From a virus, in the IMG/VR virus record IMGVR_UViG_3300037071_003849, positions 1 through 41,502 of that record: a DNA stretch of 41,502 nucleotides. The stretch is one strand, 5' to 3'. The translations under genes were made by a program, and so were the position numbers. Under the pieces are notes generated by a model. It did no database searches. It saw only the letters and a program-made list of their open reading frames with translations, and was not told where the DNA came from. Positions 4,018 through 34,488 of this stretch are shown piece after piece (position 1 is the stretch's first letter; the number at the start of each line of letters is the position of its first letter).

Positions 4018-5568
4018 GTGCCCACCAACCTGAAGCCCGCCGTCGATCGCATCAACAACGCCTTCCCCTGGCTGCTGCAGTGGAACGACCATAAAGCCTG
4101 TGGCGAGTTCCTGCAGCGGGTCGCCAACGAGCCGGAGTGCAAGGCCGAACGTGTGGGGCTGCTGAGTAAGGACCCCGGCGAGAACGGCTACACCTTTCCC
4201 AACGGCATCCGCACCAGCCACGATGTCATCGCCTGGCCGAACGGCGAGAGAGTCGACATCATTCAGAGCGCCGGCGGCCATCCCGCGCCGGGCGGCCCCG
4301 CGTGGGGCGTGATTCCACCCGACCAGTGGCGCCCCGCGAATAAATGGGTGGACATCTCGAGTTGGCCGATCTTCGACAGCGGCACGCCACATGACGCAGG
4401 TGATGCGGCCAAGGCATGCGAAGTCATGATGGGCTGGTTCTGCTGGATGCGTGCGTGGGCTGATTGGCCTGACCTCTGTAAAGAGAACGAGGCGTGGATC
4501 ATCGGCGAGATTAACCCGACGGCATACCGCGTGATGCTGTGCGTCGAAGGGCAATCGCATCAGCAGGGCAGCGACCCGGACGTGTGGCGCGATGCGGGTG
4601 TCACGATCGAAGCCCCGCAGTGGGAAGACCGATTCAAGAAGATGCTGGATCACGTCGGCTCGCAAGGCCGCAAGGTTCACGCGACGTTGTACGGCGGAAT
4701 CAACTATGTCCCCACTGAGGATGATCGTCGACGTTTCAACGATCGCATCGTCGCAGCGGCGGAAGGACGATGGGCAGCGATCCGTTCATTCGAGGTCGCA
4801 AATGAGTACACCGTTAACAAATTTACTGCTGACCAAGTGCGTAATGCAGGTCGCGATCTGCGCTCCAAGGTGCCCGCAGGCACGCTCATCTCGCTCTCGT
4901 CACCGGACGCTGCGCACGGCAGCAGTGGAACGAATCCGACCAACGAAGAAGTCGAAGCGAGCTTCGATGTCCTCTATGGCGGTGACGGAGCCGGGGCCAA
5001 CGAATGCACGATCCATACGATGAGAGGCGACCCGAACAACAAGTGGGCCGACCCCTTCTCATATAACTTCTGCTATCCAAACCTCAAGAAGATCAACAAC
5101 GAGCCGCCAGGACCGGGCAGTTCAGCGGGCGGGATGTACACCAACGCATCCGACGTGCAGCGCGACCTGACCAACACCATCAACGCAGGCTGGGCGGCGT
5201 ATGTCACGCACTGCGAATGGTCCGTCTGGAACGGTTTTCTGCCGGATTGCTACCATAACGGATGGCGGGAAGTGAAGTACGTCTCGCAGTTGCCGCAGAT
5301 GCCTGAGATTGGCAAGGTCGTGAAGAGTCTAGGGGTCCATCCCCAGGAGGAGCCTGAAGTGCCTGTACCCGCATATGATGAAGGGTGGCTGCAAGACGTG
5401 GTGCGACCTGCGGTCGTCGCAACCTACACCGAGGCCAACCATCCGCTTGACGACCTTTATCCAACGTGGATGTGCCGGACCCTCTATGACTACGACGCTG
5501 GCATGAGTAAGGATGACTCACTCAACAAGCACATCGGCGAACTGCGGGCGGCCCTCGGCCTTCCGTGA
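4018..5568 (+). CDS. Glycoside-hydrolase-like (TIM-barrel) protein, candidate lysin or depolymerase
   Basis: 516 aa from GTG 4018 (TAGGAG 6 nt upstream). Residues about 165-440 look like a (beta/alpha)8 glycosidase barrel. FEVANEY at 258-264 puts Glu263 after Asn in the strand-4 position typical of the acid/base of clan GH-A. HCEWSVW near Glu400 could supply the nucleophile. The N-terminal 160 residues (repeated Trp and GGHPAPGG) and a C-terminal helix of about 65 residues could be attachment domains. It ends the late operon and overlaps the convergent HNH gene by 51 bp. It could be an endolysin or a virion-borne polysaccharide depolymerase. Confidence 0.6.
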   Translation: MPTNLKPAVDRINNAFPWLLQWNDHKACGEFLQRVANEPECKAERVGLLSKDPGENGYTFPNGIRTSHDVIAWPNGERVDIIQSAGGHPAPGGPAWGVIPPDQWRPANKWVDISSWPIFDSGTPHDAGDAAKACEVMMGWFCWMRAWADWPDLCKENEAWIIGEINPTAYRVMLCVEGQSHQQGSDPDVWRDAGVTIEAPQWEDRFKKMLDHVGSQGRKVHATLYGGINYVPTEDDRRRFNDRIVAAAEGRWAAIRSFEVANEYTVNKFTADQVRNAGRDLRSKVPAGTLISLSSPDAAHGSSGTNPTNEEVEASFDVLYGGDGAGANECTIHTMRGDPNNKWADPFSYNFCYPNLKKINNEPPGPGSSAGGMYTNASDVQRDLTNTINAGWAAYVTHCEWSVWNGFLPDCYHNGWREVKYVSQLPQMPEIGKVVKSLGVHPQEEPEVPVPAYDEGWLQDVVRPAVVATYTEANHPLDDLYPTWMCRTLYDYDAGMSKDDSLNKHIGELRAALGLP

Positions 5569-6243
5569 GCGCTTGTTCTTCGCCTGTTCAGATGATGTCG
5601 CCCATCGTACGTTGCCGACCTCGTAGTTTCCATCGTTGTTGACTCTGTCGATGGAATGCTTCGGACTGGGACATGGACCCATGTCTGCCAGGAACGCTTC
5701 GAAACTGTGCAGCCATCGCTCGCAGACGGTAATTCCACGTCCGCCATATCGCATCCAACGAATGCTTTTAGGATAAGTGCAGCGAGCCTTCATCGCGCAC
5801 CAGATCCTGTACTCCCGCACGCCTTTGCTCTGACCGTGCTTCAGCCTCCGAGCACTCGCCAGTTCCGCATTCAAGCATCCGCATGATCTCGTAAAGCCCT
5901 GCACGAGATTGGGGCGGGGAATACTACGGGTCTTGCCGCAAGCGCATTCGCACAGCCATCCGCTGTGCTCTCCAAAATTCTCATCACGCCGAAGGACGGT
6001 CAGACGGCCGAAGGTGCGTCCAGTGATGTCTCCACGCAGTTTCCACCGCGCCTTTACAGTGTCGGACTTCCAGCACCCGCATGATTTTGTGTGACCCTTG
6101 CGAAGGCGCCCTGACTGGACACGCCGTTCTGCTCCGCAATCGCAACGGCATAGCCACGCGCCGTCATGGCCGATACGTCCATCCCGCCTGAGTGCCACCA
6201 GGCGTCCGAACCGCTGGCCGGTGATGTCGACCCGATGACTCAT
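5518..6243 (-). CDS. HNH homing-type endonuclease with two Cys-rich DNA-binding repeats
   Basis: 241 aa from ATG 6243, with GGAGGGG just upstream on the minus strand; this start is preferred to the longer one at 6285. Two tandem N-terminal modules follow the pattern GxxFGRLxxLRR...WxCxCxCG...SCGC (about residues 6-60 and 60-115), as in free-standing phage HNH nucleases. The C-terminal half contains YRIWCAMKARC, an HSIDRVNNDGNY active-site region and the GNVRWAT/EQAKNK signature. It is a paralogue of the HNH gene at 29929-30492. It lies antisense and its 3' end overlaps the glycosidase-like gene by 51 bp, as expected for a selfish insertion. Confidence 0.9.
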   Translation of the reverse strand: MSHRVDITGQRFGRLVALRRDGRIGHDGAWLCRCDCGAERRVQSGRLRKGHTKSCGCWKSDTVKARWKLRGDITGRTFGRLTVLRRDENFGEHSGWLCECACGKTRSIPRPNLVQGFTRSCGCLNAELASARRLKHGQSKGVREYRIWCAMKARCTYPKSIRWMRYGGRGITVCERWLHSFEAFLADMGPCPSPKHSIDRVNNDGNYEVGNVRWATSSEQAKNKRSRKAEGRPQFADVLVE

Positions 6244-6254
6244 GGCCCCTCCGC

Positions 6255-6425
6255 CTAGCGGTATCCCTTCAGGATGCCGACGCACTGATACTCTTTGAAC
6301 CCGTCAGCCATGCACTCGGCGATGAGCCGATGGTGGCGCTGAACCGCATAGACGAGGACCGCGACCACGATGACCAGCATCAGGCCGATCGATGTCCAGA
6401 ACGTCTTGTCACTGCCCAGGATCAT
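6255..6425 (-). CDS. Small single-TM protein
   Basis: 56 aa. ATG 6425 overlaps the TGA of the upstream gene (ATGA), so translational coupling decides the start. One hydrophobic helix (about residues 10-29) is followed by a His/Arg-rich juxtamembrane stretch and a C-terminus containing one Cys. It is the third gene of a leftward trio of small membrane proteins, which suggests a lysis cassette; a spanin-like accessory role is possible but unsupported by motif. Confidence 0.65.
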   Translation of the reverse strand: MILGSDKTFWTSIGLMLVIVVAVLVYAVQRHHRLIAECMADGFKEYQCVGILKGYR

Positions 6426-7477: not shown

Positions 7478-8311
7478 TCACGTCCAGCAGTAGCCTTCAT
7501 CGCAGGTTTCGCCGGGGCCTCTGCCGAAATCCAGTTCGGTTTGCATCTCTTCGCCAATGGCCGCGACCAGCGGACGCCCGAATTGCGTGAGGTAGACCGC
7601 ATCCTTCTCCAGCATCACCCGCCGCTCGTTCAGCACCCGCTCCAGATCCGCCGCCTTGTAGAAGAGTACGGGTCGGTCCCGGCGCAGGTCGGCCCAGACA
7701 CTGGGCTTGTGATATGGACAGAAGTAGCAGGCTGACTTCGGCGGAATCGGTAAGTCGGCCCGCCGAATCACATTCAGGCAGTCTTCCCGCTTCAGTCGCA
7801 GGTCGATGAGTGGAAACTCCCGACGCTGACAGAGGATACTGCGACTCGGCTGCTTGCGGCGCTCGACCCCATCGCCCATTCGATGCGCTTCATCCAGCGA
7901 GAAGCCAATCAGGACATCGGCTGGATGCTGCGGTGTGGCCCCATGCTGCAGCAGATAGCGGCCAACGACCTTAATCTTCCAGTCTTCAGTGCAACTCCGA
8001 GTCCCCGGAGCGCCGGTATCGGACATGCGCACGGGAATCGGCAGGCTGCGCGACTCTGGCCGCATCAACCGTTCATAGAGCGTTTCGACACGGCCGTCGC
8101 GTAGAATCTTCCGCAATTGCACGAGTGGAAATTGATGCGCGGCAGCGAAGGGCACGGCATGCGTCTCGAAATACCGCAACGTCTCCGGGTCTTCTGAGTC
8201 GTCGCCGACATTGGCAAAGAGCGCCGCATCCACCGTGCCGAGTTGGCCCTGACAGGCGAGCACGAGCAGCGCCGTTGACTGCACCCCGCCGCCGTAGGAA
8301 ATGACTCTCAT
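7478..8311 (-). CDS. PAPS-reductase/adenine-nucleotide alpha-hydrolase-like (PP-loop) protein
   Basis: 277 aa. The N-terminal SYGGGVQSTALL (residues 5-16) is a PP-loop pyrophosphatase motif (SGGxxS type). RSCTEDWK (Cys107) and CYFCPYHK (Cys195, Cys198) are the conserved features of phage-encoded PAPS-reductase-superfamily proteins. These bind ATP or an adenylated substrate; in phages the true reaction is generally unknown, with sulfur transfer or nucleotide modification possible. ATG 8311 overlaps the upstream TGA (ATGA). It is the last gene of the leftward early operon. Confidence 0.85.
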   Translation of the reverse strand: MRVISYGGGVQSTALLVLACQGQLGTVDAALFANVGDDSEDPETLRYFETHAVPFAAAHQFPLVQLRKILRDGRVETLYERLMRPESRSLPIPVRMSDTGAPGTRSCTEDWKIKVVGRYLLQHGATPQHPADVLIGFSLDEAHRMGDGVERRKQPSRSILCQRREFPLIDLRLKREDCLNVIRRADLPIPPKSACYFCPYHKPSVWADLRRDRPVLFYKAADLERVLNERRVMLEKDAVYLTQFGRPLVAAIGEEMQTELDFGRGPGETCDEGYCWT

Positions 8312-12511: not shown

Positions 12512-12758
12512 CGTCGTACTCCTCGCCCGCATGCATGCAATCCCAAGCGTGGTATTCCTCAAAGAGCGCGCAGCCACAATCGTCGCAGTGCGGATCGTTC
12601 TCGCACTGTGGGCACCCTCGCTTGTCGCACATGCGGCACCACATCGCCTGATGGTGTCCACAAAACTCGTGCGCCGTCTTATGCGCCTCGAAGTCCTTGC
12701 ACCACGGCTCAGTCTCGTAGTCGTCTCCATCGCAGGGATAAAAGTCTTCAGGATCCAT
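12504..12758 (-). CDS. Cys/His/acid-rich zinc protein
   Basis: 84 aa with AGAGGA 7 nt before ATG 12758. It has about ten Cys and several His in the order C-x-D...WC...FCGHH...WCRMCDKRGCPQCENDPHCDDCGC, dense enough for two or three zinc sites, plus many Asp/Glu. It overlaps its upstream neighbour by 11 nt. The family is not recognised. Confidence 0.7.
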   Translation of the reverse strand: MDPEDFYPCDGDDYETEPWCKDFEAHKTAHEFCGHHQAMWCRMCDKRGCPQCENDPHCDDCGCALFEEYHAWDCMHAGEEYDGA

Positions 12759-13155
12759 CGCGCTGTCCTCTCAGCCATCGCATGCTGCGAGCGTTGTTTT
12801 CCGCAGGCGTGACAGGCTCAAGATGCCAAGGATTAACGCAGCAACGATTCCGACAGAGATGATCGAGCGCCAAGCCTTCAGGAATAGGGCCGACGAATGT
12901 CTCGTATGACACCCGGTGCGCGAGTCGCCGCTGAAGCGCCTTGCCGTAGCCAGCCTTATTTAGGCACAGCCGCCACGACCAGCACCCAGACGCACTGCTG
13001 AAATCGGCATAAGTGAGGATGTAGAGGCGCCTCGGTTGCCGCCGTTGGTGGCCGCGAATATACGGCAACTGCTGGCCCTTAACTTGCCCCAGCCTAGTCC
13101 GTGAACGAGTGGCTACTGGTGGATATGCGCCGCATCCACATCGACACTGATTCAC
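12748..13155 (-). CDS. HNH endonuclease (Cys-ribbon plus HNH)
   Basis: 135 aa. GTG 13155 overlaps the upstream TGA (GTGA) and has an ideal AGGAGG 7 nt before it. An N-terminal CRCGCGA ribbon precedes the phage HNH signature: GCWSWRL, AHRVSYE, then LDHLCRNRCCVNPWHLEP with His, Asn and His intact. It belongs to the small phage HNH family that includes the variant at 18578-19027, which has lost the first His. Confidence 0.88.
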   Translation of the reverse strand: MNQCRCGCGAYPPVATRSRTRLGQVKGQQLPYIRGHQRRQPRRLYILTYADFSSASGCWSWRLCLNKAGYGKALQRRLAHRVSYETFVGPIPEGLALDHLCRNRCCVNPWHLEPVTPAENNARSMRWLRGQRDGS

Positions 13156-13373
13156 TTCCCGTCCTCCTTCTGCTCCACCAGTTCCCACGGGCGACCGGCG
13201 CTCAGTTCGTCATCGTCCTCGACATCCCGGCCACAGGTCGGGCAGTGTGGGACCATCAGCCGTAAGGTGGAAGCGATAAGCAGATCGTTTCCGAACAGAC
13301 TGAATCCGTCACCAGTCTGCGGCAACGACTCCTCGCGGAACGTCACGGGTTGACCGCAGACGGTGTGCGTCAT
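13152..13373 (-). CDS. Small zinc-binding hypothetical protein
   Basis: 73 aa, start set by ATGA overlap. An N-terminal Cys and CPTCGR (near residue 45) could bind zinc; an acidic DVEDDDELS stretch follows. Function unknown. Confidence 0.6.
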   Translation of the reverse strand: MTHTVCGQPVTFREESLPQTGDGFSLFGNDLLIASTLRLMVPHCPTCGRDVEDDDELSAGRPWELVEQKEDGK

Positions 13374-14387: not shown

Positions 14388-15062
14388 CTACCGCCCAGCC
14401 ACCACGGCATAGGGGGCCTCGACGGCATGCCAGCCAAGCGCCGCCTGATACTCCCGCTCCACTTCCTCAAGGAACGCCAGGGCCTTCGAGGCATAGGCGC
14501 TGACCTCAGCGTCGTTGCGGTAGTAGCGCACATAGAAGGTCCGCAGGTGCGCCGGGAACATCGGGTTGAAGCTCAGGAAGTCGGCATAGTGCGACCCGGT
14601 AATCCATAGCGTGTGCAGAATTTGTGGCAGATAGCGCGGCGGCACGACCGGATCGCCTCTGAGCCACGCCCAGTGATTCGCGGCACGTGGCGCCTTCAGT
14701 TCAAGCACGCCCTCGAAGTCGTTGATCACCCCATCCGGGCTGCAGCCCGCGAGGTGCGTCACATGGCGGCAGAAGCCTACTTGCGTGGCAAGCGTCCCGG
14801 TCAGTGCCTCGAAGGCCGCAAAGGCATCCGGCTCCAACTCGATGCCGCGGGCCATGTCGGCGTTCATGTAGCCGTCTTCTTCGGGCTGCTGTGTGAGGCG
14901 TTCACAGACCAGACGAATCCGCAGGTCGCGCCGGGCTGCCGCCTCGCCGCCCTTGATGGTGGCAAGCATCTCGTGGGCGACTGAGGCGGTGAAGGTGCCC
15001 AGGCGGGCACGCTTCCACTCGTCGGAGCGTTGCGGATGGTCGATGACCTCGAACTCACGCAC
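14388..15062 (-). CDS. YqaJ-like viral recombinase exonuclease
   Basis: 224 aa from GTG 15062, overlapping the ERF stop by 8 nt. RSDEWKRARLGTFTAS, ARGIELEPDAF, CSPDGVI (Asp110) and LELKAP (Glu121, Lys123), then YLPQILHTLW, give the PD-(D/E)xK core of lambda-exonuclease/YqaJ proteins. These degrade 5' strands at double-strand ends so that an annealing protein can load. Pairing with the adjacent ERF gene makes the role convincing. Confidence 0.9.
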   Translation of the reverse strand: MREFEVIDHPQRSDEWKRARLGTFTASVAHEMLATIKGGEAAARRDLRIRLVCERLTQQPEEDGYMNADMARGIELEPDAFAAFEALTGTLATQVGFCRHVTHLAGCSPDGVINDFEGVLELKAPRAANHWAWLRGDPVVPPRYLPQILHTLWITGSHYADFLSFNPMFPAHLRTFYVRYYRNDAEVSAYASKALAFLEEVEREYQAALGWHAVEAPYAVVAGR

Positions 15063-15678
15063 TGACCGGCTCCGTCACCTTGGCGGCGACCTCCTTGAGT
15101 CGATCGAGGCCAGCCTTGTTGGTTTGCACCAGATAATCCCGAAACTCCGCTTTCGACGCTTTCCATGCGGCGCGCAGCGCCTCAGTTCCCTCAGCGGCCG
15201 ACGCACTCAAGTCGTGCTGCCAGTCGTCGTAGCCCTTGGGCGCCGGGCGTGAACTGACGGTGGGCGTGGCGTCCTGTGCGGTTTTGCCGTCGTCGTCCTT
15301 CTCCGGGGCAATGCCGAGCGCACCGCCGGCGGCGTAGCGTTTCGCATAACTGATGGCTGAGCCCTGCTCCTGCGGGCGTTCGTACATCCCCAGCGGGTAA
15401 TGGCCCTTCATCCACTGTCCGGACTCGTGCATGAGCATCGTCACCAGCAGGAACTTGCCGTCCCCATTGATGTCGGGCCACTGCGAGAGCGTCAGACCGT
15501 GATTACTGAGGGCGGGCGTGGTGGCGTCGAACAGATCGGCGAGGTCCCCGTATTCGTACTCGTAGCCGCCCTTCTGCGAGGCCACTTTGGCGGTGTGGCT
15601 TTTCGCGAACGGGGTGAACTCCTTGCGCGCCCTGGCCAGGGCCGCGGCGAGTTCGTTGATCTGGTCGCTGGTGGTCAT
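15055..15678 (-). CDS. erf: ERF-family single-strand annealing protein
   Basis: 207 aa from ATG 15678 (ATGA overlap). The sequence INELAAALARARKEF, YEYEYGDLADL, HGLTLSQWP, QEQGSAISYAKRYA matches the ERF superfamily core. These ring-forming proteins anneal complementary single strands. The C-terminal helical part is variable. It is translated just ahead of the YqaJ exonuclease, the usual partner. A longer start at 15948 lies within the upstream genes and lacks support. Confidence 0.9.
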   Translation of the reverse strand: MTTSDQINELAAALARARKEFTPFAKSHTAKVASQKGGYEYEYGDLADLFDATTPALSNHGLTLSQWPDINGDGKFLLVTMLMHESGQWMKGHYPLGMYERPQEQGSAISYAKRYAAGGALGIAPEKDDDGKTAQDATPTVSSRPAPKGYDDWQHDLSASAAEGTEALRAAWKASKAEFRDYLVQTNKAGLDRLKEVAAKVTEPVSA

Positions 15679-15878
15679 GACGGCTTCGCCTCCGGTCGGG
15701 TTTCGTCGTGGCTGGACAGGTGCAGCAGCGCAATGGTGCGCATCAGCAGCGCCACGCGCTGTTCGAGTCGTGCGAGTTCGAGGTCGAAGACGATGAGGTG
15801 CAGCTCGTCCGGCTGGACACTGGACAGGCCATGCGCGATGGCTTTGGCTTCCGCCAGCAGATCGTCCTGGGTGCTCAT
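15675..15878 (-). CDS. Small helical hypothetical protein
   Basis: 67 aa. Almost entirely helical with Leu-rich heptads (LELARLEQRVALLMRTIALL), likely a dimeric coil. It is coupled to ERF by ATGA, suggesting an accessory role in the recombination operon; no family recognised. Confidence 0.7.
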   Translation of the reverse strand: MSTQDDLLAEAKAIAHGLSSVQPDELHLIVFDLELARLEQRVALLMRTIALLHLSSHDETRPEAKPS

Positions 15879-15881
15879 CGT

Positions 15882-17378
15882 CTAACCAGCCATGCCCTTG
15901 AGATAGGCGAATGATTTCGGGAGAGATGCGGCTTTGGGATGGACCCACGGAAACTCACGCACGCGGTTCTCATCCGAGAGCAGGTTTGTCTTGAAATAGA
16001 CCCGGCAGCCGGCGTCCACCGCCGCGCCATACAGGTCATGCACCCAGCGGAAGGGCGGATACCACGCCGGCGTCCTGGTGCTCGGTGTGGCGCCGCCGAT
16101 CACGACCCACTGAAACAGTTCGAGGTGTGTGAAGCGCAGCGGTTCCAGCAGCGGCTCCAATGACAGCCATTTGGTGTCGCATTTGATCTTGGCAAACGCG
16201 CGCTCCGCATTGTCGACACGTGCCTGGGCATCGACGGTGGTGCCCATCCAGACGTTCGATGGGAACGTAAACTCCGCCGCCCGTTGGGGAAACTTCGTGA
16301 GCGTCAGAAAGTTCCAGCGGGGGTTGCGACGCGCCATCTCCAGCGTGGCGTCAATCCAGTCCGCTGGCACCCACTGGCCGAACAAATCGGACATCGAGTT
16401 GGCGAAGATGTTTCGATAGGATTCGTCTCTGCTCGCCTCGGCCGGCACCTTGACGTGTCCTGGCCCTGCCAGACGGTGCGGATGAAACGAGGGCTCGAAT
16501 TTTTGCGGATACAGGCGGTCCGCGATGTCCCTGGCGTAGCAATAGGGACAATCGTGCTTGCAGCCGGTGACGGTATTGTGTGACCAGCGCGCCCACTCGA
16601 TGGACGTGCCGGTCTGCTCGTTCATGCCCTCGCCGGTGGCCTCGAACCCGTCGGCGATGATCGTCGCCCGTTTCGCTTTTGACAGGGCCTTCCAATCCTC
16701 GAGCAGGTAGTACTGCTTGGTTCCGGCCTGCGCCTTGTTGGACACGAGGTGCAGTTCGGTGGGTGGCGGTTCCGGTTTCGGCTGCCGCTTCGCCTTGTCC
16801 TTGGCGTCCTTGATCTTCCGGCGACGGATGCTGTCGCTGGGTTCGGTGGCGATGTCGAGTTGGTCTTCGTGCGACAGGCTGACCAGTTGAGCGGCGGCCG
16901 ACACGCTGACCATCTGTGAGTCGACGGCTTTCGCGAGCTCCGGAGTTCCTTCAGTAATGACTTTTTTGGCGTGGGTTACAGATGCGCGAGCAACGCCGAC
17001 GAGGGACGCAGCAGCAGCCACTGACGTATCAGAGGCTAAATTTAGCCTCTGATCGCTCTTTCGGTCGCCTCCGTTGGATAGATTGGCGATGCGACCGGCG
17101 ACCATCGCGAGTTGGCTGACGTCGAGGTGTCGGCGGGCGACGTTCATGCTGATGACGAACTTCAGCGGATCGCCCTCGGTCTCGGGATCGAACGGGCGGA
17201 TGTGCGGCTCGATGTCGAGGGCTGCGCACGCGCGCCAGCGGTTCACGCCGTCGAGGATGGCGTTGTCATAGACGACGATCGGCAGATGCTGCCCGGACTC
17301 GCGGATGGACGTCTTCAGGGCCTCGAAGTCGTCTGCGCTCATTGGCGGCAGCAGGTCGGCCAGCTGGTGTGCCTTCAT
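15882..17378 (-). CDS. ParB-like domain fused to a DUF5131 (phage Gp37/Gp68) radical-SAM-type domain
   Basis: 498 aa. Residues 1-60 form a ParB/Srx-type fold with the LDGVNRWRA nucleotide-binding strand-loop; residues 75-165 are a helical, HTH-like region (NGGDRKS, VGVARASVTHAKKV). A charged Pro/Lys linker follows. From about residue 255 the second domain has TGCKHDCPYCYARDIADR (Cys273, Cys277, Cys280, a CxxxCxxC iron-sulfur motif), NSMSDLFG and WLSLEPLLEPL, the marks of the Gp37/Gp68 three-Cys family. The next gene is its TcmP-like partner. A 26-bp palindrome lies within the coding DNA. The substrate is unknown. Confidence 0.87.
   Translation of the reverse strand: MKAHQLADLLPPMSADDFEALKTSIRESGQHLPIVVYDNAILDGVNRWRACAALDIEPHIRPFDPETEGDPLKFVISMNVARRHLDVSQLAMVAGRIANLSNGGDRKSDQRLNLASDTSVAAAASLVGVARASVTHAKKVITEGTPELAKAVDSQMVSVSAAAQLVSLSHEDQLDIATEPSDSIRRRKIKDAKDKAKRQPKPEPPPTELHLVSNKAQAGTKQYYLLEDWKALSKAKRATIIADGFEATGEGMNEQTGTSIEWARWSHNTVTGCKHDCPYCYARDIADRLYPQKFEPSFHPHRLAGPGHVKVPAEASRDESYRNIFANSMSDLFGQWVPADWIDATLEMARRNPRWNFLTLTKFPQRAAEFTFPSNVWMGTTVDAQARVDNAERAFAKIKCDTKWLSLEPLLEPLRFTHLELFQWVVIGGATPSTRTPAWYPPFRWVHDLYGAAVDAGCRVYFKTNLLSDENRVREFPWVHPKAASLPKSFAYLKGMAG
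17028..17053. promoter_or_regulatory. 26-bp perfect palindrome inside the ParB-radical SAM gene
   Basis: The half-site ATCAGAGGCTAAA is followed immediately by its reverse complement TTTAGCCTCTGAT. It encodes the SDQRLNLASD segment after the ParB core. It could be a centromere-like or autoregulatory binding site for the encoded protein, an RNA hairpin, or chance imposed by codons. Confidence 0.75.
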
Positions 17379-18187
17379 GCCACCCCCCGCCGTTCGATGC
17401 GCTGCAATAGGGACTTCCCGTCTGGTGAATCAATACGTCGCATGGCCGGCAGTCCCCATTTCTCCAGGGCGGGCACATACCGCAGATTCGACCCGTAGAG
17501 CACGACGTGATCGCGGCCCTGCCCGGAGGGGGGTCTAAAGGGTTCGGACACGAGCCACGAGGCACGGCGGAGTGTGTCGAAGATTTGAGCGAAGCTGGCG
17601 ACCTTCTCGCCGGTCTCTCGGAAGTCGTCGCTGGTGGAGCGGTCCCAGTACGACCAGACCTGTTTGAAACTGCCGATGTGAATGATCACGTCCAGATAGG
17701 GGGCACGGTCGAGTGCGGTGCGGATACCCTGCAGCGGCACGTCCAGTCCATTGGGATCGGCGATGATGACGCCGCGGGTGTTTGATGCTTTCGCCCCGAT
17801 CTCACTGATGCGGTCTGGGATGGTGGGTGAGAAGACGGCGTTGTCGGCTCTGACCACATGGACGAGGATGAGCGGTTCCCCGCCAAACAGATGCCCGTTG
17901 CAGGAGGCCCGTGACTGCAACACGGGGATGACTGTCTTGTCTTTGTCCACCCACCACACGACGGATCGCTGCGACTTCGATTCGAGCTTGTCGTAGATCG
18001 TCTGCGTGGTGCCGCGATACCGGCGTCCACCGATGTGGTTGGTGGGTTCGCCGGCGTTCAGGTCGAAGACACAGTAGCGGCCATCACCAGGGCGCATGTG
18101 TTTCAGTCCCCATCCCACACAGGCGGAGATCAGGGCTTCCTTGGGTCCGGTGGCTTCACTGCGCCCCTGTTTGGCGGGGGTGCTCAA
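17375..18187 (-). CDS. tcmP: Three-Cys-motif partner (TcmP)-like protein
   Basis: 270 aa, ATG-coupled upstream of the ParB-radical SAM gene. YCVFDLNAGEP near residue 40, a PLILVHVV strand, an IIADPNG strand and the DVIIHIGSFKQVW segment suggest a Rossmann-like domain of the TcmP type, which is typically encoded next to Gp37/Gp68 three-Cys proteins. The family's reaction has not been established to my knowledge. The assignment relies on pattern and on adjacency, so a different methyltransferase-like or nucleotide-binding role is possible. Confidence 0.65.
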   Translation of the reverse strand: MSTPAKQGRSEATGPKEALISACVGWGLKHMRPGDGRYCVFDLNAGEPTNHIGGRRYRGTTQTIYDKLESKSQRSVVWWVDKDKTVIPVLQSRASCNGHLFGGEPLILVHVVRADNAVFSPTIPDRISEIGAKASNTRGVIIADPNGLDVPLQGIRTALDRAPYLDVIIHIGSFKQVWSYWDRSTSDDFRETGEKVASFAQIFDTLRRASWLVSEPFRPPSGQGRDHVVLYGSNLRYVPALEKWGLPAMRRIDSPDGKSLLQRIERRGVA

Positions 18188-18486: not shown

Positions 18487-18581
18487 GACTGCATTCCGAC
18501 CAGGGCAACCCAGACCAGTAACCCCATCCACAGCAGGGCCAAGGTCAGCAGGCAGAGCCGTTCAGCTCGCGACGGGTTCAT
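18483..18581 (-). CDS. 32-aa single-TM micropeptide
   Basis: ATG 18581 overlaps the upstream TGA and the stop overlaps the next ATG. MNPSRAERLC is followed by a continuous hydrophobic stretch (LLTLALLWMGLLVWVALVG). It has N-in topology by the positive-inside rule. Exact coupling on both sides supports translation. Function unknown. Confidence 0.6.
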   Translation of the reverse strand: MNPSRAERLCLLTLALLWMGLLVWVALVGMQS

Positions 18582-19027
18582 CGCAGGCTCTTCTCCCGCT
18601 CCCGCGCTTTACGTCTGACTTCGGTGAGTTCTTCGACGGTCCAGCCGTAGCGTTGCGCCAGCACCTCAAGCATCCCTGGTCGTCGCGGTAACAGGCGGAG
18701 ATGCTCCGGGTTGCAGCACATGAGATTCCCGCAGATTTGCTTGAGGTAGCGGCCTTTGTCGAGTTGTCCGTACGTCAACTCATAGGCCATACGGTGGGCG
18801 TAGCGGTTGTCGGCTTTGCCTTGGGCGTTGCGACCGACTTTGAACATGCCGCGGCCTGAATGGTCAGCGCTGCCGGTCCACAACCAACACCCTCCGTCGA
18901 TGCGGTTGACTTTGCCCCAGAAGCGAGTAAGGATGGCTTCCGTCAGCCCCGCCGTCGGCCTCTTCCCTGACGTGGCTTCATGACTTGCTGCCACGTCATC
19001 ATAATATGTATTACCAGACCCATGCAT
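18578..19027 (-). CDS. HNH-family protein with a substituted active-site His
   Basis: 149 aa from ATG 19027 (3 nt after the upstream stop). The sequence GGCWLWTGSADHSGRG, YAHRMAYEL, then LKQICGNLMCCNPEHLRLL aligns with small phage HNH nucleases such as the one at 12748-13155. The residue pair that is Asp-His there (LDHLC) is Lys-Gln here (LKQIC). Asn and the last His remain. It may be an inactive, DNA-binding derivative. The C-terminal 35 residues form a basic helix. Confidence 0.75.
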   Translation of the reverse strand: MHGSGNTYYDDVAASHEATSGKRPTAGLTEAILTRFWGKVNRIDGGCWLWTGSADHSGRGMFKVGRNAQGKADNRYAHRMAYELTYGQLDKGRYLKQICGNLMCCNPEHLRLLPRRPGMLEVLAQRYGWTVEELTEVRRKAREREKSLR

Positions 19028-19029
19028 TT

Positions 19030-19299
19030 TTAGGCCACTTTTGTGGGGTTTCGTTTGAACGATTGTTCTAAAGTTGCTCTGCCGGCAGCAGAAAGCCAAC
19101 GGATGAGGTTTTCCACAGGGACGCCCGTCACCTCATGCAGCCGCAGCGCCTTCTCCAGCGAACAACGCCGGGAGTGCGTGAGGATCTTCGACATATGCGT
19201 CGCTTCGATGCCGGTGAGTTGGGCGAGCTGGCCGGTGGTGGTGCCCGTGGCCTCCATCCAGGCTTGAAGCGTCGCAAAGGGGCGACGAGGCTTGGACAT
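19030..19299 (-). CDS. Cro-like HTH regulator
   Basis: 89 aa. LQAWMEATGTTTGQLAQLTGIEATHMSKILTHS gives an XRE-type HTH (about residues 11-50), with a C-terminal helical extension. It is the first gene of the leftward early operon and is divergent from the CI-like gene at 19443. A promoter (-35 at 19333-19338, -10 at 19310-19315, minus strand) would start RNA only about 3-5 nt before ATG 19299, so the message may be leaderless. Confidence 0.8.
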   Translation of the reverse strand: MSKPRRPFATLQAWMEATGTTTGQLAQLTGIEATHMSKILTHSRRCSLEKALRLHEVTGVPVENLIRWLSAAGRATLEQSFKRNPTKVA

Positions 19300-20192: not shown

Positions 20193-20405
20193 ATGACCTC
20201 GCGCAAGCCGCTCCAGCCTGCCGTTCGCCAGGTCAACTTCCGGCTGCCTCAAGACTCGTGGGAATGGTTGGCGGCGGCGGCCGGCGTCCTTGGGCGTCCG
20301 CATTCGAGTATCGTGGCAGAGGCGCTGCAGCAGTATCGAACGGCCCTGCCGGTGGCGGATCAGCAACTGATCGAACAGACGATTGCGAGGCGCCGCCAGC
20401 CCTAA
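20193..20405 (+). CDS. Ribbon-helix-helix (CopG-like) protein
   Basis: 70 aa from ATG 20193. RQVNFRLPQDSWEWLAAAAGVLGRPHSSIVAEALQQY is a strand followed by two helices as in RHH DNA-binding proteins. The frame is open further upstream, but those residues do not look like the family. It is convergent with the GIY-YIG gene; their stops share bases at 20402-20405. Start is uncertain since no strong Shine-Dalgarno is seen. Confidence 0.65.
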   Translation: MTSRKPLQPAVRQVNFRLPQDSWEWLAAAAGVLGRPHSSIVAEALQQYRTALPVADQQLIEQTIARRRQP

Positions 20406-21043
20406 TCTTGCGCCACGTGCAGGACTGCCCCACTGGTTTCCACAGGCTGTGCAGAACTTGTCGACGGTGCGGTATGAAGCTCGTCTTTATTGTCTCCCTG
20501 GCATTGGATGGCCTCGGTGACAGCCTCGATGCGGTCCGTATTCTTCCAGAAGAACGTCAACGGATTGAATCCTTCCTCGAGGTGCATGACAAACGCAAAG
20601 AGCCGTGTGCTGACCTTGAACCACTCGCCCTCGTCGCGGTCGTCCTTGAACTGAGTGTGGACGAGCGTTTCCAAGGTCCAATGCGCTGGGCACACCGCGA
20701 GGAGGGTGAGCGGGATGGGACTGCCCTGCTGCAATGAGCGGAGGCGTTCGGTCAGGTTGACGGCGCGGCCAATTTTGACGCGGTCCTGGCACTGCACGAT
20801 GTAGAGATAGCACCAGCCTTCGGGACTCACCGGGAAATGACTGGGGGTTTTGGGTGTGACCCACTTGGTCATCAGGGCCTGCTTCCACGGCGGCCGCGGC
20901 GCGCGGAAACCCTTCCGCCAATCGCGAATCGTTTCGAGGGGTGTCGTCAGCGGGAAGGTTCTGGAGTGTCGCTGGCCTTTGCGCGAGACGATGGCTTCAT
21001 AGCGATTGCCTTGCCGGCGGATGCCCTTTTCGATGTTTGCCAT
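20402..21043 (-). CDS. GIY-YIG (T5orf172/Mug113-type) nuclease with integrase-like N-terminal arm domain
   Basis: 213 aa from ATG 21043 (AGGA upstream). Residues 1-50 (NIEKGIRRQGNRYEAIVSRK, then TFPLTTPLETIRDW) resemble the N-terminal arm-binding domain of tyrosine integrases. Residues 77-145 match T5orf172-type GIY-YIG nucleases: WCYLYIVQC, VKIGRAVNLTERL, a helix with Glu125, and EGEWFKVS. No integrase catalytic domain follows. The combination suggests a DNA-site-directed GIY-YIG enzyme, possibly a homing-type element that captured an integrase arm domain. Confidence 0.78.
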   Translation of the reverse strand: MANIEKGIRRQGNRYEAIVSRKGQRHSRTFPLTTPLETIRDWRKGFRAPRPPWKQALMTKWVTPKTPSHFPVSPEGWCYLYIVQCQDRVKIGRAVNLTERLRSLQQGSPIPLTLLAVCPAHWTLETLVHTQFKDDRDEGEWFKVSTRLFAFVMHLEEGFNPLTFFWKNTDRIEAVTEAIQCQGDNKDELHTAPSTSSAQPVETSGAVLHVAQD

Positions 21044-21230
21044 GACGGGTATCCTAGCCCGACCATTAGCGAATTTCCATGTTTCCACGACTCCTTTATC
21101 AAATTCACCGTCAAATTGTGCATAGCGCAATATCTAGCGGTTCTTTCTTGACCCCACACCATGATGGGCGCATGATTCGGCTTGCTCGCTTCCTTGTAAC
21201 TGAGGGGCGCGAAGCGCTCTCGCCTAGCTC
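21044..21230. promoter_or_regulatory. Divergent intergenic region with operator motif copy 2
   Basis: The 187-bp space between the leftward GIY-YIG gene and the rightward small membrane gene holds ATTGTGC ATA GCGCAAT (21115-21131), a near copy of the dyad in the CI-like promoter. A minus-strand TTGACG lies beside it at 21109-21114, a potential -35. No clear matching -10 box was found. Confidence 0.5.
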
Positions 21231-26269: not shown

Positions 26270-27250
26270 ATGGCCGCGATCTGTTGTTGGTGTGGTCAAC
26301 CGCTGGGTCGCTGGCGGCAGGCGGGCGTGGTGGAAGCGCCGTGGATCTGCCCGACCACGTCGTGTAAAGAGCGTATTGCGACCAAGAGTGTCGTCCTGAC
26401 CCAGAAGGGCAAGCCGACCAGGCCGCTCTTTGTGCCGCTGCCCAAGCAGTGTGAATGGCTCGAAGCCGCACTGGATAAGAGAACTACGAAGCTTCTCGTA
26501 GGTGGTGCGGCGGGTCCGGGTAAAAGCCGGGTGATGCGCGAGTTTCTGTATCGGCTGGCGCAGACGATTCCAGGCTTTCACGGACTCCTGCTCCGCCGGA
26601 CGCATAAGGACCTCGAGCAGAGTCACTCGCGCTTCATCCCGATGGAAGTCAGTCTGCGGGGCGGGACATGGCGTGTGTCCGACCGCGTCGTGGAGTTTGG
26701 GCACAAGGGCGCCAGTCCCGGCGTGATTCGTCTCGGCCATCTGGAAGACGCCGGGGCACTCCAGAATTATTTGTCGTCTGAGTACGATGTCATTGCACCA
26801 GACGAACTGGTCACTTTTTCAAAAGATGAGTGTTTGGAACTCTTCTCGCGTGCCCGTTCGTCCAACCCAGCGCTCCAAGAGCTCCGCGGCGGCTACCAGT
26901 ATTGGGACACCAACGAAGACGGGCAGCCCGAACTGATGACCACCGACGGCTCGCTCATCTTTGCCTCGTCGAATCCTGGTGGCAAAGGCGCACGGTGGAT
27001 CAAGGAATTCTTCGTGGACAAGAATCCGGACCCAGAGGAGCATCCCCACTACAAGCCTGAGTTGTGGCGTTTCTGTGGCGCGAAACTCAAAGAAAATCCG
27101 TATCTCAGCCGCAGTTACGTCAGCACATTGAAGGATCTGCCGGACGTGCGCCGACGCCAACTGCTCGACGGTGATTGGGACGCATTTTCAGGGCAATTTT
27201 TTGACTTCCGCCAGTCCATGCATGTACAGGATCTCGGCCTGCATCCGTAA
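26270..27250 (+). CDS. terL: Large terminase, ATPase part, with N-terminal zinc ribbon
   Basis: 326 aa. Cys5/Cys8 and Cys27/Cys32 form a zinc ribbon. Walker A GGAAGPGKS (78-86), an LLRR motif, Walker B YDVIAPDEL (Asp178, Glu179) and FASSNPGG (coupling motif) identify the packaging ATPase. TAA at 27248 ends it within the usual linker to the nuclease. The nuclease continues in the same frame after nine sense codons (see next entry), giving a 535-residue protein if the stop is read through. No strong Shine-Dalgarno precedes ATG 26270. Confidence 0.9.
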   Translation: MAAICCWCGQPLGRWRQAGVVEAPWICPTTSCKERIATKSVVLTQKGKPTRPLFVPLPKQCEWLEAALDKRTTKLLVGGAAGPGKSRVMREFLYRLAQTIPGFHGLLLRRTHKDLEQSHSRFIPMEVSLRGGTWRVSDRVVEFGHKGASPGVIRLGHLEDAGALQNYLSSEYDVIAPDELVTFSKDECLELFSRARSSNPALQELRGGYQYWDTNEDGQPELMTTDGSLIFASSNPGGKGARWIKEFFVDKNPDPEEHPHYKPELWRFCGAKLKENPYLSRSYVSTLKDLPDVRRRQLLDGDWDAFSGQFFDFRQSMHVQDLGLHP

Positions 27251-34454: not shown

Positions 34455-34488
34455 GGCGTGGCGGCATCTGCTGTGATGCCGCCACGCC
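34455..34488 (+). terminator. 13-bp perfect hairpin after the decoration gene
   Basis: GGCGTGGCGGCAT and ATGCCGCCACGCC pair perfectly around an 8-nt loop, in the 69-bp gap between the stop at 34447 and the ATG at 34517. No U-tract follows, so it may be a transcription-attenuation or mRNA-stability hairpin, not a classical terminator. Confidence 0.6.

Follow-up and report, generated by a model that had tools for sequence, protein, structure and literature searches.

The Question Raised by the Locus

Positions 15,882 to 18,187 of the IMG/VR record IMGVR_UViG_3300037071_003849 encode a protein in which a ParB-type domain is joined to a radical-SAM-type enzyme, together with a second, translationally coupled protein. 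The whole analyzed stretch of 41,502 nucleotides (41.5 kb), called here the window, comes from a tailed phage, with the large terminase subunit encoded at 26270-27250. An earlier note, made from the DNA letters, proposed that the two genes form a possible undescribed system for modification of nucleic acid or protein. The question is what such a pair of enzymes acts on, and why a phage would tether it to a DNA-binding module. The reading that we favor, and hold tentatively, is a two-gene system by which the phage modifies its own DNA: a docking module, a radical-SAM enzyme and a methyltransferase-like partner would be docked in cis via a site embedded in the fusion gene. A role in protein modification found no support in this analysis.

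Organization of the Locus

Both genes lie on the minus strand. The gene of the 270-aa partner, P0002 (17375..18187, TTG start codon), is located upstream and shares 4 bp (an ATGA overlap) with the gene of the 498-aa fusion protein, P0001 (15882..17378). A 115-aa gene upstream of the partner gene overlaps it by 4 bp in the same way. On the 3′ side of the fusion gene, a 67-aa ORF is followed by genes for Erf (15055-15948), a YqaJ exonuclease and NinB/Orf proteins, as identified with Pfam and PHROGs; the Erf, YqaJ and NinB neighbors indicate that the fusion/partner pair is part of a phage recombination operon. No ParA gene was found with Pfam or PHROGs among the neighbors, as the genes next upstream have either no Pfam match or an HNH match and the downstream ones are those of the recombination group.

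Several other genes of the minus strand were annotated in the window. They encode a PAPS-reductase-family protein, a PP-loop enzyme (7478-8311; phrog_424, 1.8e-30), two HNH or HNH-like endonucleases (5518-6285, phrog_374, 1.7e-76; 18578-19099, HNH_3, 8.2e-9), an HNH-like endonuclease assigned by eye only (12748-13188) and a T5orf172/MUG113 (GIY-YIG-like) protein (20402-21130). A perfect hairpin with 14-bp arms and a 6-nt loop, likely a terminator-type structure, lies in the structural gene region at 34455-34488.

Domain Structure of the Fusion Protein P0001

P0001 consists of a ParB-fold/HTH module, a linker and a DUF5131 radical-SAM-type domain. This confirms the architecture described in the earlier note, including the reading frame, the LDGVNRWRA segment (residues 42-50), the HTH segment and the three cysteines. 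The AlphaFold2 model (mean pLDDT 91.4, pTM 0.63) shows two domains with a floppy joint between them.

The radical-SAM-type domain (residues 258-466; 15981..16607, minus strand) was matched over residues 258-464 by the Pfam family DUF5131 (PF07505, Gp37/Gp68) with 127.6 bits against a gathering score of 28.9 (7.4e-37). The PADLOC models PDC-M30B/M41B match it at about 1e-33 (4.4e-32 for PDC-M30B), and TIGR04471 (rSAM_mob_pairA) of NCBIfam gave a weak match below its cut-off. In Pfam, PF04055 stayed under its gathering score (15.4 bits against 29.5). The CxxxCxxC motif GCKHDCPYCYAR (16539..16562, minus strand) comprises Cys273, Cys277 and Cys280, which are invariant in the 52 aligned relatives; no other cysteine is invariant. 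In the model, the motif belongs to a TIM-barrel-type fold. A methyl-Cys mechanism as in RlmN/Cfr was ruled out, because it would need an invariant cysteine beyond the three cluster cysteines. When P0001 was compared with solved structures using Foldseek, this part of the protein matched RlmN (6.5e-3) and spore photoproduct lyase (1.3e-2), both weakly, perhaps because the whole protein served as the query.

The ParB fold postulated for the N-terminal part is weak by Pfam, where PF02195 (ParB N-terminal) remained under its gathering score for P0001 (13.9 bits against 26.3) and was met by one relative (L008, 46.7 bits). It is clear in PHROGs (phrog_21315, 1.4e-18; phrog_4715, 1.2e-10) and in the predicted structure: residues 1-100 (17079..17378, minus strand) adopt a ParB-CTPase-like fold, and Foldseek matched the N-terminal part to CTP/CDP-bound ParB, Noc and KorB with E-values from 5.6e-6. 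The HTH-type segment (residues 119-177; 16848..17024, minus strand) is helical in the AlphaFold2 model, and the Foldseek alignments with ParB span about 190 residues. Within the module, D43-G44-x-x-R47 and N79-x-x-R82-R83 are conserved; as for the NTP-binding boxes I-III, R47 and N79-x-x-R82-R83 are retained and box I is not recognizable by eye. It was reported that only 11 of the 28 ParB-fold fusions tested bound any NTP and that sequence does not allow NTP binding by this fold to be predicted (PMC12704722).

The Partner Protein P0002

P0002 itself gave zero family matches in Pfam, NCBIfam (including TcmP, TIGR04474), PHROGs and PADLOC, and a tblastn search with it against phage records returned no match. 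When P0002 was aligned with its homologues, TIGR04474 matched 6 of the 9 sequences of the alignment (best 1.7e-16), and one PADLOC PDC-M30A model matched up to 10 of 50 homologues. The putative TcmP identity of P0002, as proposed earlier, thus holds through its relatives only.

The predicted structure is more telling. The AlphaFold2 model of P0002 (pLDDT 86, pTM 0.87) has a class I methyltransferase fold, for which Foldseek found the m6A methyltransferase RlmJ as the closest structure (3e-9), followed by TYW4; M.BseCI matches too. Lys16 (codon 18140..18142, minus strand) and Asp144 in the motif DPNG (codon 17756..17758, minus strand) are the sole residues invariant across all 50 relatives. In RlmJ, Lys18 and Asp164 are essential catalytic residues, and the K18A and D164A variants are dead (PMC3814359). 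Judged from the position of the motifs, Lys16 and Asp144 appear to be the counterparts of Lys18 and of Asp164 in the RlmJ DPPY motif. The DPPY form of motif IV is absent from P0002, which has DPNG, and most relatives have D-P-x-G. The SAM motif is degenerate as well, with G-E-P in place of G-x-G. Because of these two changes, P0002 may have lost or changed its catalysis.

By its family models, the combination of DUF5131 and TcmP corresponds to PDC-M30, an uncharacterized candidate defense pair of PADLOC. The two genes could accordingly be a phage-borne version of this pair that serves in anti-phage defense or superinfection exclusion, as the matches of the radical-SAM domain to PDC-M30B/M41B and of up to 10 of 50 partner homologues to one PDC-M30A model would suggest. 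We consider this improbable: the PDC entries of PADLOC are untested candidates, P0002 itself lacks a PDC-M30A match, and the pair resides in an early recombination operon, not in a moron or a defense island.

A Viral Family with Exchangeable Docking Modules

Further fusions were gathered by scanning viral and genome contigs, and many of the loci obtained are fragments. The scan gave 55 distinct DUF5131 fusions with an N-terminal DNA-binding module, nearly all of them viral. The search for the fusion in other genomes, suggested in the earlier note, thus turned up a widespread viral family, and the possibility of a single exotic fusion was ruled out. A homologue of the partner is present in the same locus for 51 of the 55, usually directly upstream and often with a 4-bp overlap. 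The radical-SAM halves of many fusions share about 50% identity, while the N-terminal module varies: 39 have the ParB fold, 11 have another module, which we call type B, and the remaining ones belong to at least three rarer types.

The modules were also searched for on their own in viral contigs. As the pooled alignments (A6, A7) were too diverse, smaller sets (A8, A9) were used. Among 72 proteins with the ParB module, the module was accompanied by MT-A70 in 32, by Dam in 8 and by N6_N4_Mtase in 1; among 43 type-B proteins, Dam was found in 9, MT-A70 in 2, N6_N4_Mtase in 2 and DUF5131 in 1. Plasmids carry ParB-MT-A70 and type-B-Dcm fusions. The DUF5131/TcmP pair thus occupies the slot that an adenine-DNA methylase takes on the same docking modules, and it is mainly for this reason that we infer a DNA base as the substrate. 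These shared modules support the proposal of the earlier note that the chemistry is brought to DNA by the ParB part, with the palindrome described below as a plausible site.

On a Streptomyces plasmid, a ParA gene is directly followed by the gene of a type-B protein with an embedded palindrome, TCGAAAATTTTCGA (L146:758-2364). Since this protein adjoins ParA, the type-B module would also be partition-like, which suggests that type B may be an unnamed centromere-binding family.

Phages and Clostridia often encode DUF5131 proteins that stand alone, with no docking module attached; the basic chemistry can therefore do without docking. Two such solo genes, from phages of Gordonia and Synechococcus (L288:3980-5849 and L131:4992-6610), are convergent with, and overlap, a TcmP-like methyltransferase gene, a layout that differs from the operon of the window. 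In S. meliloti, the TcmP gene SMa2243 is listed beside SMa2245, the gene of the phage-defense helicase Hna (PMC12445080).

The same data bear on two other substrates. The pair might modify host or phage tRNA or rRNA, with the ParB module serving only for autoregulation, by binding to its own gene. The closest solved folds are indeed those of the RNA enzymes RlmJ and TYW4 for the partner and, weakly, RlmN for the radical-SAM half, and pairs without a docking module exist. Nevertheless, the docking modules are those that are fused to adenine-DNA methylases, and autoregulation alone gives no need for a covalent link to an enzyme, seen here in so many independent types of module; we therefore regard RNA modification as unlikely, though worth keeping in view. 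Less likely still is an enzyme that repairs DNA or removes a modification in the manner of spore photoproduct lyase, which the ParB module would recruit to the phage DNA while it recombines. The nearest folds do include spore photoproduct lyase, and the gene lies within the Erf/YqaJ/NinB operon. To our knowledge, spore photoproduct lyase acts alone, without an obligate methyltransferase partner, whereas the partner homologue accompanies nearly all of the fusions.

A Palindrome Embedded in the Module Genes

The coding sequence of P0001 contains a 26-bp perfect palindrome, ATCAGAGGCTAAATTTAGCCTCTGAT (17028..17053), over residues 109-117. Its presence had been noticed before, and it proved real. 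With 13-bp perfect arms it is the longest zero-loop palindrome of the window, where it occurs in a single copy even if 3 mismatches are allowed. The encoded residues belong to the linker that joins the ParB fold to the HTH, and AlphaFold2 models this linker with low confidence. In relatives, a palindrome is found at the corresponding place, and its sequence differs each time.

A palindrome score of at least 11 was reached by 21 of the 55 fusion modules, as compared with 0/55 radical-SAM halves, 0/51 partner genes and 5/188 neighboring ORFs. A second sample of modules was fetched independently, without regard to the radical-SAM domain. In this sample, a score of at least 9 was found for 31 of 74 ParB modules and 32 of 52 type-B modules; at the same threshold, the controls gave about 3% for synonymous-codon shuffles and one case each in the rest of the same genes (1/67 for ParB, 1/46 for type B). 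The synonymous shuffles and the rest-of-gene, partner-gene and neighbor controls ruled out a chance origin. A palindrome forced by the protein sequence was also ruled out, as the encoded peptides vary widely while the dyad stays. The position is fixed as well. In the ParB types, the center mostly lies 32-36 aa after N-x-x-RR; for type B, 19 of 32 genes have it 32 aa after TFEEY. The position is shared by 152 of 190 comparable module pairs (at least 50% identical). This comparison of genes shows that the module genes are under clear selection for a palindrome at one fixed position. About half of the fusion genes have no palindrome scoring at least 9. Covariation between paired palindromes (two-sided changes) was set aside, since the palindromes had been chosen for symmetry and compensation arises partly by construction.

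Palindromes occur in ParB modules, in type-B modules and in two module types represented by single cases, and they accompany a methylase, a radical-SAM domain or no effector at all. As they span module types and effectors, they belong to the docking module. In type B they share an operator-like consensus, TGTNNMCAATTGKNNACA. A repeated operator was not seen in the phage, with one copy per sequence piece examined. We predict that the palindrome is the module's own parS-like binding site, which is plausible from its place and symmetry. The candidate site of a phage ParB-like domain could then, in many cases, be read directly from the gene itself.

The palindrome might instead be an mRNA hairpin or a transcription attenuator. 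Hairpin folding in RNA is possible for long palindromes, and some copies have loops of 4-5 nt, but among palindromes scoring at least 9 the loop is zero in 18 of 29 from fusions and 55 of 63 from modules. In most cases the central bases are thus palindromic too, which a hairpin does not need, and zero loops favor a DNA dyad, i.e., a duplex site for a dimer. Together with the type-B consensus and the restriction of the palindromes to the DNA-binding module, with none in the partner genes of the same operons, this makes a hairpin improbable in our view.

The 20-bp core of ATCAGAGGCTAAATTTAGCCTCTGAT was also found in three near-identical viral contigs (L135-L137) in an unrelated context. There it is part of a tail-type gene of 1465 aa, which a small ORF overlaps, and encodes EAKFSLS in both directions. 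Separately, genes located just 3′ of some fusions have long palindromes with arms of 11-14 bp (L080:7512-8321, L066:7746-8552, L060:7938-8621 and L108:7153-7983); these are perhaps replication initiators with an internal origin.

Proposed Mechanism

The DNA-modification reading is based directly on the domain architecture, the folds, the conserved catalytic residues, the strong co-occurrence of the two genes, the swapping of modules with DNA methylases and the palindrome at a fixed place. The ParB/HTH module would recognize the palindrome inside its own gene, and might load there in an NTP-dependent manner, as ParB does at parS. In this way the radical-SAM domain, and with it the coupled RlmJ-like partner, would reach the genome of the phage itself, where the two SAM enzymes could install a modified, probably hypermodified, base in two steps. 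Base modification of the phage genome is presumably also what the ParB-methylase fusions of other phages bring about. Such a base would protect the phage DNA from host nucleases. A nucleic-acid target is supported by the clear resemblance of the partner to RlmJ and the weak resemblance of the radical-SAM half to RlmN and spore photoproduct lyase. The counterpoint is that RlmJ, TYW4 and RlmN are enzymes of RNA; for the pair, DNA is the probable target mainly in view of the methylases that share its modules. If so, the DUF5131/TcmP pair, which is common in phages, gains a likely role in DNA-base modification together with a likely RlmJ-like fold of its partner.

A wider proposal is more speculative, and we put it forward as a possibility. 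Several unrelated docking modules would each carry their own loading site, so that the DNA encoding them is marked as the substrate and modified in cis by the fused enzyme, be it an adenine methylase or the radical-SAM/methyltransferase pair. If true, self would be told from non-self by gene linkage and not by a short methylation motif, and a mobile element would have a new means of confining a DNA-modifying enzyme to the genome that encodes it.

Comparison with Known Systems

The nearest known proteins are those of the DUF5131 (Gp37/Gp68)/TcmP (TIGR04474) pair, PDC-M30A/B, which have the same CxxxCxxC catalytic domain and a homologous partner. Phage examples of adjoining genes include gp42/gp43 of Gordonia phage Jablanski, and no function is described for them in the literature searched. 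In contrast to the fusion of the window, they have neither an N-terminal docking module nor an embedded palindrome; P0002, unlike known TcmP/PDC-M30A proteins, matches no TcmP or PDC model directly. P0002 shares its methyltransferase fold with RlmJ, the 23S rRNA m6A2030 methyltransferase (PMC3814359), and differs from it by DPNG instead of DPPY and by the altered SAM motif.

With ParABS, the locus has in common a ParB fold with an HTH and a palindromic site in or near a parB-like gene. A precedent is provided by repABC replicons, in which parS sites lie inside repB, at its 5′ end (PMC9040568). The differences are that the gene of the window has no adjacent ParA, that the effector is an enzyme pair, and that each gene has a different site sequence, placed in the linker that connects ParB fold and HTH. 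The Dpd and Dnd systems likewise have a ParB-superfamily protein (DpdB, DndB) beside DNA-modifying enzymes (PMC12839542, PMC10853773), but there it is a separate protein, and DUF5131 and TcmP are lacking.

Phage fusions of a ParB-CTPase fold with methyltransferases have already been surveyed by Kaljevic et al. 2025 (PMC12704722). These are also phage-borne, combine the ParB fold with a base-modifying enzyme and may have an anti-defense role. The view of an undescribed system is therefore only partly upheld: the enzyme pair has a counterpart in PDC-M30 and ParB-methylase fusions are published, whereas the radical-SAM fusion and the embedded palindrome, neither of which appears in the main text of that survey, are both present here.
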